From: Ignavibacteriota bacterium
Lineage (GTDB): Bacteria > Bacteroidota > Ignavibacteria > Ignavibacteriales > Melioribacteraceae
Direction: 5' to 3'
Assembly (NCBI GenBank): GCA_013112585.1
Contig: JABFGH010000010.1
Location: 62,001 to 126,000 of the forward strand
Length of the DNA: 64,000 bases
Made by a program: the position numbers and the translations under genes. This document shows positions 33,398-36,500 of the stretch, in pieces. Under the pieces are notes generated by a model. That model had not been told where the DNA came from. It saw nothing but the letters and a program-made list of their open reading frames with translations, and did not search any database. The first letter of the stretch is position 1, and every line of letters starts with the position of its first letter.

Positions 33398-33955
33398 ATG
33401 CCGTATAGAGAAAAGGCTGTTCAAGATCATTTCTATCATTTGTATAATCGAGGTAATAATTTTGAAAATATATTTTTTGAGGAAAGAAACTATAAGTTTT
33501 TGCTCAACAGAATGATTTATTACTTTGATATTCACATCGATATAATAGCATATGTTTTGATGCCAAATCACTATCACTTCATTGTTGAAGTTAAGAAAAA
33601 TGATTTTCTTGAAAAGGCACTTCAAAAATTTTGTACTAGCTATACTAAAGCAATTAATAAGAGTAGAAATAGAGTCGGACACTTATTTCAGGGAAGATAT
33701 AAACTAAAGTTAGTTCCTGAGAACAATTACCTACTTCATTTATCAAGGTATATTCATTTAAATCCAGTTAGAAAAGGGTTGGTCAATCATCCTATTGAAT
33801 GGAAGTTTTCAAGTTATTCAAAGTATTTGGGTGAGATGGGACAAGCATTTGTTAAGCCAGACATTATTTTGGATCAGGTAAATGATTATGAAGATTTTGT
33901 TTTAAGTTTTCAAGAAAATCAAAATTTTTACTTGAAAGATATTCTGTTTGATTGA
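33398..33955 (+). mobile_element. REP-associated tyrosine transposase (RAYT), first copy
   Basis: 185 residues of the transposase-17/RAYT family, related to IS200 TnpA. The HUH motif is MPNHYHFIV (H-Y-H), the family's RYIHLNPVRKGLV supplies the conserved Tyr/Asn-Pro region, and GHLFQGRYK lies between them. These enzymes cut single-stranded palindromic repeats and are thought to spread REP-type elements without moving themselves. The gene ends just before a 34-bp perfect palindrome at 33971-34004. It shares only the family pattern with the second copy at 34449-35051, so the two are different lineages. Confidence 0.9.
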
Positions 33956-34044: not shown

Positions 34045-34392
34045 TCAGCCGGGGGGCCAATTCATTTTTCTACCGCCAAGCAAGTGCATGTGAATATGAT
34101 AAACTTCTTGCCCGCCATTTGATCCGCAGTTAAAAACTAGACGAAAACCTTCTTCAGCAATTCCTTCTTTTTCAGCAATTTGATTCGCTGCATCGTACAT
34201 TTCTCCAAGCAATTTAGAGTGCTCATTTCCTTTAATTTCTCTTACAGTCGGAATTTCAATTTTAGGAATTATTAAAATATGCGTAGGCGCTTGCGGATTG
34301 ATATCCCGGAAAGCCAATAGTGAATCACTCTCAAAAACAATATCCGCCGGAATTTCTCTGTTAATTATTTTAGTAAATATTGTATTTCCCAT
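34045..34392 (-). CDS. HIT-family nucleotide hydrolase
   Basis: About 115 residues from the ATG at 34392, chosen because GGAGG lies just before it and the protein then begins MGNTIFTKIINREIPADIV, the usual family start; an in-frame ATG at 34428 would add 12 unlikely residues. The active-site triad is HIHMHLLGGR near the C-terminus. HINT-type members hydrolyse AMP-amine or AMP-lysine conjugates, but the natural substrate varies. Cytoplasmic. It lies between the two transposase genes. Confidence 0.93.
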   Translation of the reverse strand: MGNTIFTKIINREIPADIVFESDSLLAFRDINPQAPTHILIIPKIEIPTVREIKGNEHSKLLGEMYDAANQIAEKEGIAEEGFRLVFNCGSNGGQEVYHIHMHLLGGRKMNWPPG

Positions 34393-34415
34393 AGTACCTC
34401 CAACTAATGTATAAT

Positions 34416-34431
34416 AGATTGCTTGCAATCT
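34416..34431. repeat. 16-bp palindrome, left flank of second RAYT
   Basis: AGATTGCTTGCAATCT: 7-bp arms AGATTGC and GCAATCT around TT. Its exact reverse complement occurs at 35129-35144 on the other side of the transposase gene. Confidence 0.85.
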
Positions 34432-34448
34432 GTTAATCTGTTATTAAT

Positions 34449-35051
34449 TTAATTATAAAACTCACTTGATAAATAAGTATGCTGCCAATCTTCCCAATTA
34501 TTAACCAGTCCGGCTTTTACAGGATTTAGAACCACATATTTCATTACTTTAAAAAGTTCTTCAGTATCTCGTATCACATGATCATAACTCTCAGCCTGCC
34601 AGAATTTACATTTTTTATTTAAAACACGATTACTATAATAGGCAGAAATCCTTTTTATTTCCTGCATAATTTTGCTGATCGGTTTAGAATGTTCATACAG
34701 GTTAAAAACTATATGTATGTGATTAGGCATGATAGTAAAACAATAGAGCGAATATTCATGTTTATCAAGCTTAAATATTTGTGTTTTTACAATCTCGGCA
34801 ATTTCAAAATTACTTAGATAATTGATCTTTGAATTTTTATGGAGTAGTTGATCATATTCATAAAAGAATTTACTTTCCTGCTTGTATTTCTCTCCCTTGT
34901 TCAAAGGTGTTTTTAAGTTTCCAAATCGATTCTTTAATTCATAGAGTTTATGTTTTGGAATACTGCCATGTAATCGGGTTGTAATGAAGTAAGCTGAGTT
35001 CGGAATATATATATGTGGTAGGTTTCTTTTATGAAAGTGAGGTTCATTCAT
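34449..35051 (-). mobile_element. REP-associated tyrosine transposase (RAYT), second copy
   Basis: 200 residues with the HUH motif MPNHIHIVF (H-I-H), FWQAESYDHVIRD and MKYVVLNPVKAGLV. The N-terminus (LPHIYIPNSAYFITTRLHG) is the form seen in the larger RAYT subgroup. It is bracketed by identical 16-bp palindromes in opposite orientation (34416-34431 and 35129-35144), which together with the gene span 729 bases. RAYTs are usually flanked by the REP elements they recognise, so this palindrome is a good candidate for its substrate. Confidence 0.9.
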
Positions 35052-35128
35052 TTGTAATTCGTTAAAGTAATTTAAATATTTATTGAATGATTAATATTTC
35101 AAAATAAATATTGATAAAGTTAATACGC

Positions 35129-35144
35129 AGATTGCAAGCAATCT
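35129..35144. repeat. 16-bp palindrome, right flank of second RAYT
   Basis: AGATTGCAAGCAATCT, the exact reverse complement of the copy at 34416-34431. It lies four bases beyond the stop of the sigma-54 regulator gene and could also help end that transcript. Confidence 0.85.
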
Positions 35145-35147
35145 ACG

Positions 35148-36500
35148 TTACTTTTTTTCTATTTCATACTTTTTCATTTTGCCGTATAAATGACTTCTTT
35201 GAATCCCCAACACCTCTGCGGTCTTACTGATATTCCAGCCGTTTACTTCAAGCTGTTTTTCAATAAATGCTTTTTCAGATTTTTCTTTGAACTGCTGAAA
35301 TGAATTAGCAACATTTAAAAATTCAGTGTCCTTACTTTTTACTGTAGGGGAGAGATGAATAATATCCTTCTCTGTAATTTCATTTTCGGGAACCATTATA
35401 ACTACACGCTCAATTAAATTTCTGAGTTCGCGTACATTACCTGTCCAGCTAAAATTTTGCAGTGCATTTAATGCATCTTTTGAAAATGATTTTTGCACAA
35501 ATCCATTTTTTTTGCATATCTGGGTTATAAAGTGATTAGCCAGCAGGGGAATATCATCTTTTCGTTCACGCAGCGGCGGAACATTAATTGGAATTACATT
35601 TAGTCTGTGAAATAAATCCTCACGGAAATTTCCTTCTGCAATTTCTTTTTCTAAATCCTTATTTGTTGCGGCTACAATTCTTACATCAACTTCTATATTT
35701 TCACCGCCGCCAACTTTTTCAATTGTACCATCCTCAATGGCTTTAAGTACTTTTGCCTGTGCCTGCAAACTCATATCGCCAATCTCATCTAAAAACAATG
35801 TGCCTTTATGTGCAAGCTGAAATTTACCCATTCTATCCTTATGTGCCCCGGTAAAGGATCCTTTTTCATGTCCGAATAATTCAGACTCGATTAATTCATT
35901 GGGAATTGCAGCACAGTTTACTTCTACTAATTTATTATCAGCCCTGCTGCTTTGTTGATGAATTGCTTTAGCAATTAATTCTTTTCCTGTTCCATTTTCA
36001 CCGGTTATTAAAACACGCGCTTCAGTTTTAGCAACCCGTTCTACTGTTTCCAAAATTGATTTAAGAGCTTTGCTCTCACCTATTATTACATCTTCTGAGA
36101 TCAGTTCTTGTTTTAATTCTATATTTTCTTTCAGCAGGTTATTCTGCTTAACTGCATTGCGTACACTTATTAAAAGTTTATCCCGGTCAATAGGTTTTTC
36201 GATAAAATCATAAGCTCCGAGTTTTGTAGCTTTAACAGCATTTTCTAAACTGCTGAATGCTGAAATCATAATAACAGTAATGGAAATATTGTTTTTGTTA
36301 ATCCAGTCAAGCACTTCAAAACCATTTTTATCCGGCATCTGTATATCAAGAAGTGCAGCATCGAATGAAGAATATTTTAATTTTTCCAATCCCTTATTCA
36401 CATCGGTCGAATAATCAACATGATAATCTTCATATTCCAAAATCATTTTTATGCTTTCGCAAATTTCTTTTTCGTCGTCAATTACAATTATTGATTTCAT
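35148..36500 (-). CDS. Sigma-54-dependent response regulator (NtrC family)
   Basis: 450 residues in three domains. The receiver domain (about 1-120) has acid-pocket D8/D9 and phospho-acceptor Asp52 in LLDIQMPDKNG. The AAA+ domain (about 140-375) has Walker A TGENGTGKE, the sigma-54 contact loop GSFTGAHKDRMG (a common GAFTGA variant) and LDEIGDMSLQAQAK. A Fis-type helix-turn-helix (ISKTAEVLGIQRSHLYGKM) ends the protein. No kinase gene is adjacent. It may act at sigma-54 promoters such as that at 17462-17477, but nothing here ties the two together directly. Confidence 0.94.
   Translation of the reverse strand: MKSIIVIDDEKEICESIKMILEYEDYHVDYSTDVNKGLEKLKYSSFDAALLDIQMPDKNGFEVLDWINKNNISITVIMISAFSSLENAVKATKLGAYDFIEKPIDRDKLLISVRNAVKQNNLLKENIELKQELISEDVIIGESKALKSILETVERVAKTEARVLITGENGTGKELIAKAIHQQSSRADNKLVEVNCAAIPNELIESELFGHEKGSFTGAHKDRMGKFQLAHKGTLFLDEIGDMSLQAQAKVLKAIEDGTIEKVGGGENIEVDVRIVAATNKDLEKEIAEGNFREDLFHRLNVIPINVPPLRERKDDIPLLANHFITQICKKNGFVQKSFSKDALNALQNFSWTGNVRELRNLIERVVIMVPENEITEKDIIHLSPTVKSKDTEFLNVANSFQQFKEKSEKAFIEKQLEVNGWNISKTAEVLGIQRSHLYGKMKKYEIEKK

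Follow-up and report, generated by a model that had tools for sequence, protein, structure and literature searches.

The window analysed here is a 64,000-nucleotide stretch of the genome of an Ignavibacteriota bacterium (G000 below). Within it, the gene of a REP-associated tyrosine transposase (RAYT) lies between two REPs at the junction of two conserved neighbouring genes, with the following layout.

34409..35151, 743 bp: the whole REP-RAYT-REP unit, probably a one-piece insertion (the gap between the flanking genes is 758 nt here versus 7-37 nt in 26 of 29 genomes)
34409..34435, plus strand: class B REP, with the foot GTAT followed by the hairpin core AGATTG-CTTG-CAATCT; the 16-mer at 34416-34431 lies inside
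34449..35051, minus strand: RAYT gene, 200 aa, with the HUH histidines H111/H113 and with Y172
35124..35151, minus strand: class A REP, with the foot GTAA followed by the hairpin ACGTAGATTG-CTTG-CAATCTGCGT; the 16-mer at 35129-35144 lies inside
34045..34392, minus strand: HIT-domain gene, one of the two conserved genes that flank the insertion
35148..36500, minus strand: sigma-54 response-regulator gene, the conserved neighbour on the other side, whose stop codon TAA lies within the REP foot

A reading made from the sequence only had described a 16-mer to the left of the gene and its exact reverse complement to the right, spanning 729 bases, with the right copy four bases from the stop codon of the neighbouring gene. 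These details are confirmed: the exact 16-mer AGATTGCTTGCAATCT occurs at 34416-34431 on the plus strand and its reverse complement at 35129-35144, and the TAA of the regulator gene (35148-35150) starts four positions past the 16-mer, inside the GTAA foot (35148-35151). Since the 16-mer (AGATTGC-TT-GCAATCT) is self-complementary at 14 of its positions, its internal orientation rests only on the central TT/AA. The inversion is confirmed by the flanks, where the inverted repeat runs on to 27 nt with 85% identity and a GTAA/GTAT foot points outward at both ends, the left foot of the pair being GTAT, not GTAA. The REP thus exceeds the 16-mer; with the outer stem and the foot added to the core, the two copies occupy 34409-34435 and 35124-35151. 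Within the window, for which a rough ORF count gives a coding share of 87.5%, there are four matches to the 16-mer with at most three mismatches (two sites, each on both strands), a modest excess over a shuffle mean of 1.14, as 3 of 100 shuffles reach four.

The 200-aa product scores 92.2 bits with NF047646, the NCBI model of the REP-associated tyrosine transposase family (curated cut-off 80), and also matches the Y1_Tnp domain. Across 25 homologs, there is no variation at H111, H113, Y172 or the W-Q pair. The top PDB match by profile is the E. coli TnpA-REP structure 4er8 (E 4.1e-13), which is also the top Foldseek match (E 9.2e-10, TM 0.57/0.68) of the predicted structure (mean pLDDT 88.4). 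The RAYT family model has ten matches in the genome, three of them above the cut-off, and a second close copy of the 200-aa RAYT was not found in the genome.

As read from the loci, a REP consists of a foot (usually GTAA), a stem, and AGATTG and CAATCT around a CTTG loop. The pairs of the outer stem change together (ACG/CGT, AAA/TTT, AAG/CTT, GAG/CTC and GCG/CGC), and a mostly constant T-G pair stands between them and AGATTG. In addition, there is a long form with about 22 extra nucleotides at the tip, which contain two small hairpins. Pair counts from 15 short and 12 long REPs back the fold, and in either set none of 500 shuffles reached the observed covariation score; a caution is that the A arms form one lineage and the B arms another, which makes the REP sequences non-independent. 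Among 27 hand-aligned REPs, the foot is GTAA in 22, GTAG in three, GTAT in one and GTAC in one. The strict 5' tetranucleotide GT[AG]G is therefore not the REP consensus here (only 3 of the 27 fit), though a tetranucleotide foot is present.

In the 4.94 Mb genome, the exact 16-mer occurs seven times, against zero for the reversed-pattern control, and 35 sites match it when any central pair and at most two mismatches are allowed (control 4). At E<=1, one covariance model gave 26 matches and a second gave 29, combining to at least 29 REPs and a weak partial match on C6; scoring covered 150 of 4614 first-look candidates with the first model and 150 of 2577 with the second, and weak REPs may be missing. 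Besides the pair at the RAYT there are at least 16 element loci, comprising 12 two-armed REPINs (two inverted REPs with a short spacer) and four single REPs (L022, L023, L026 and L209). Every one of the 12 two-armed loci has one class A (GTAA[CA]GT-) and one class B (GTAAAAY-) arm, the decayed arm of L013 and L014 being classed from its 3' half, and the RAYT is likewise bracketed by one REP of each class. L016 additionally carries a third, central hairpin. None of the 16 loci lies within a long ORF, and 13 are free of overlap with any ORF of at least 60 aa; L023 overlaps the preceding ORF by 4 nt and a 64-aa antisense ORF, and the overlaps of L025 and L026 concern only 82- and 81-aa ORFs. The palindrome is thus one repeated between genes, with seven exact copies and with all 16 other loci essentially intergenic. 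The sequence-only reading, which would have failed if the 16-mer had occurred nowhere else or without enrichment between genes, is borne out by this count, by the inverted pairs at 12 of the 16 other loci and by the empty sites in relatives described below.

At gene ends, REPs provide the stop codon from the foot (GTAA, GTAG) or from the hairpin (window 35148-35151, L023:1221-1224 and L031:1380-1403). This may be a reason why insertion at 3' ends is tolerated.

For comparison among genomes, we used a sample of 97, namely the present one and 96 relatives. A RAYT homolog is found at E<=1e-10 in 39 of them, including G000, and in a tree of 25 homologs the present RAYT belongs to a clade of seven with support 91/85 (G000, G019, G012, G044, G054, G020 and G026). 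The exact 16-mer is present in 10 of the 97 genomes, and the reversed control is absent from all 97. Six of the seven genomes of the RAYT clade contain it (7 copies in G000, 1 in G019, 5 in G012, 56 in G044, 18 in G054 and 8 in G026); G020 has a RAYT of the clade and lacks the exact 16-mer. Conversely, 4 of the 90 other genomes have the 16-mer without a clade RAYT (20 copies in G042, 3 in G028, 3 in G036 and 1 in G024). One genus code is common to G042, G054 and G020, and another to G028 and G044; the available part of PMC3686654 describes REPs that persist after their RAYT is gone. The association of 16-mer and clade has a Fisher p of 1.4e-6, or 1.2e-5 without G000, values in which the kinship of the genomes overstates independence. 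The 16-mer therefore tracks the RAYT clade across genomes, which supports the earlier view of this locus as the arrangement expected of a RAYT with its own REP pair.

The same plan extends to other RAYTs of the order, which have different palindromes. Among RAYT loci with 350 nt on each side (10 of 43 were omitted for short flanks), GTAN-footed hairpins of the same core stand on both sides in 24 of 33, versus 0 of 27 control loci, which are gene-dense and thus an imperfect control. The other 9 of the 33 failed this test; the hairpin finder misses long-loop REPs, and such structures are visible by eye in L035 and L039. In longer RAYT homologs of relatives (L055, L056, L057, L059, L198-L202, L204, L206 and L207), a REP lies inside the gene with the reading frame kept.

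The HIT gene has 57 matches in 58 genomes; 30 were fetched as loci, and in 29 of these the sigma-54 regulator gene adjoins. The aligned gap between the two genes is 7-37 nt in 26 of the 29 genomes. In the other three it measures 231 nt (G025, where no RAYT is present), 758 nt (G000) and 794 nt (G019). Aligned with the empty site of G009, the sequence of G000 diverges immediately ahead of AAGTAA at the class A foot and matches again a few nucleotides past the class B foot (TTGGAGGT), these breakpoints being known to within a few nucleotides because the empty-site relatives belong to other genera. The regulator gene is now terminated by the TAA of the REP foot. Since the junction is opened at the REP feet, the REP-RAYT-REP unit probably arrived whole.

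G019 also has a RAYT at the regulator-HIT junction, in the same orientation, and its junction contains several palindromes whose sequence is partly different. As for an insertion shared by G000 and G019, the RAYT tree joins the two weakly (84/39). In the regulator-gene tree, G000 pairs with the empty-site genome G009 (96/95), and a grouping of G000 with G019 is not rejected (p 0.147, with G027 dropped as a long branch); a purD tree of 13 genomes does not reject this grouping either (p 0.177).

Across the HIT gene from the main RAYT, the window contains a second RAYT-like gene (33398-33955) with a score of 72 bits, under the cut-off. The purD-HIT gap is 8-124 nt in 12 of the 13 genomes having both genes and 708 nt here, so that the HIT gene probably stands between two separate RAYT insertions. 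A REP pair was not seen around the gene at 33398-33955.

Elsewhere in G000, another RAYT element exists in several copies.

L212:582-1266 (C9): open copy, encoding a 184-aa RAYT (NF047646, 119 bits)
L211:837-1519 (C37): open copy
L233:383-694 (C41): internally deleted copy, 312 bp
L234:436-747 (C47): internally deleted copy, 312 bp

The proteins of the two open copies are 88% identical, and the units are 84% identical over 685 bp. Each is bracketed by TGTCGAGGA-n4-TCCTCGACA palindromes, at which the similarity ends. The C41 and C47 copies are 97.4% identical to each other and keep both ends, with most of the gene missing. The genome contains 18 such palindromes with at most two mismatches (control 0). 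These copies show the pattern expected of a transposon and its miniature derivatives, and the alignments indicate that the unit moved as a whole.

The C9 copy sits between perfect 52-bp direct repeats (L212:534-585 and 1338-1389), which exceed any target duplication expected of the superfamily. A further RAYT-like gene of G000 (L210:851-1208, on C11) has GTAG-footed GAGACG..CGTCTC palindromes adjoining it and one inside, and this palindrome recurs near a REPIN on C7.

From these comparisons, we consider it very likely that the locus is a REPtron, that is, a RAYT gene flanked by inverted REPs, whose REPs recur as REPINs or singly, are predicted to be mobilised by the enzyme and probably came in with it as one unit. 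As the earlier reading had suggested, the REP is the putative substrate of this RAYT. REPs are usually abundant, and the small family found here (at least 29 REPs) counts against a REPtron.

A gene-and-repeat pair of this kind is known from other bacteria. In the available text of Nunvar 2010 (PMC2817692), RAYTs are always flanked by two inverted REPs with which they coevolve, and REP abundance follows the RAYT; the search criteria used there kept gammaproteobacterial RAYTs only. The present locus resembles the REPtrons of PMC2817692 and PMC6006769 in the enzyme family, in the inverted REP pair with a tetranucleotide foot, and in repeats that lie elsewhere between genes with an abundance following the RAYT. 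It differs in that the foot is mostly GTAA rather than GT[AG]G and in that the host is AT-rich. REPINs were described by Bertels and Rainey 2011 (PMC3116915), and the two-armed elements likewise have two inverted REPs with a short spacer, are intergenic and can fold into one hairpin, but the population here is small (at least 12) and the two arms each have a tip of their own, short or long. The strict pairing of A and B arms also differs from the REPINs of PMC3116915 and resembles that of the E. coli REPs Y and Z2 (PMC6006769). Among the TnpA-REP subclasses of Quentin 2018 (PMC6006769), which include REPs inside the genes of subclass 2.4, it is this subclass (Bertels group 4) that the RAYT resembles, in the motifs NH[IFV]H and WQ, in its length (about 194 aa in the subclass), in a distribution over Bacteroidetes and other phyla, and in the internal REPs of longer homologs. 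In contrast to the subclass as given there, the Y motif is YVxLNP (YVVLNP in the present protein) rather than YIxNNP, the gene has no internal REP and the foot is GTAA. New here are the GTAA foot, the empty sites, and the presence in G000 of another RAYT element that is duplicated and has miniature copies.

By analogy with studied relatives, the REP would fold when its strand is single, for example during replication, and the RAYT would read the foot and the hairpin and nick adjacent to them with Y172. Such nicking would mobilise REPINs as non-autonomous elements. The TnpA-REP of these relatives binds the single-stranded REP and nicks at CT beside it, and a GTAG foot can serve as guide (PMC8266576, as far as available); a GTAA foot under the same pairing rule would lead to nicking at TT. 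The empty sites suggest that the REP-RAYT-REP unit itself would have entered the regulator-HIT junction in one piece.

Alternatively, the RAYT and the REPs may have arrived separately, the REPIN or the gene first and the other later, so that the bracket reflects two events and the RAYT is immobile. We regard this as somewhat improbable but worth serious consideration. In the available parts of PMC2817692, PMC3116915 and PMC6006769, RAYT genes show no sign of movement of their own, the main RAYT is without a second close copy in the genome, and the RAYT of G019 at the same junction has partly different palindromes, as expected of REPs added around a resident gene. Evidence against two events comes from the junction, which stands closed in 26 of 29 genomes and opens here at both REP feet, and from the ends of the RAYT unit, one of class A and the other of class B as in all two-armed REPINs; in addition, the duplicated RAYT elsewhere in G000 clearly appears to have moved as a unit bounded by palindromes.

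We give very little credence to two further alternatives. In one, the palindromes serve as transcription terminators or as sites bound by a transcription regulator, and adjoin the RAYT by chance; a 16-bp, near-perfect intergenic palindrome does look like an operator, and several elements lie just past stop codons. We rejected both the operator and the terminator on account of the foot, the inverted pairing of A and B arms, the covarying outer stem, the presence of the repeat in step with the RAYT clade across genomes, the other palindromes on the same plan at related RAYTs and, from reading of the loci, the absence of a T run after the hairpins. In the other, the element is an ordinary insertion sequence of the IS200/IS605 kind, bearing repeats at its ends. 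Such elements (IS608, ISDra2) share the HUH-Y1 superfamily and fold as well as a guide tetranucleotide 5' of a hairpin, and an insertion sequence would account for insertion at a junction otherwise closed. However, the 200-aa product obtains 21.4 bits with the IS200 family model NF033573, well under the cut-off of 55, whereas the RAYT model passes; the element is bounded by two inverted REPs whose feet point outward, and a close second copy is absent, so this candidate was rejected too.

Returning to the REPtron, we tentatively propose, with slightly more doubt than belief, that the RAYTs of this lineage are not domesticated single-copy genes but move as REP-RAYT-REP units, with REPINs as their miniature derivatives, and that in the REPs of the main RAYT the guide has changed from GTAG to GTAA. 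The empty site and the second RAYT argue for self-movement of RAYTs in the lineage, less surely for the main RAYT. If the guide has indeed changed, nicking would be expected at TT, not CT, under the published guide model, and GTAA is a natural foot change for probing how that model accounts for the choice of cleavage site. With the junction closed in 26 of 29 genomes, the question of RAYT self-movement becomes testable in this lineage, and one REP core can be tracked across genera along with its RAYT.

Two further observations concern relatives. The 56 copies of the 16-mer in G044 (L213-L219) lie within a longer repeat whose flanks are shared on both sides, which may be a larger mobile unit. 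The RAYT homologs L044, L047 and L053, from G009 and G018 of one family and G070 of another, share neighbouring genes, which suggests another long-lived or preferred RAYT site.
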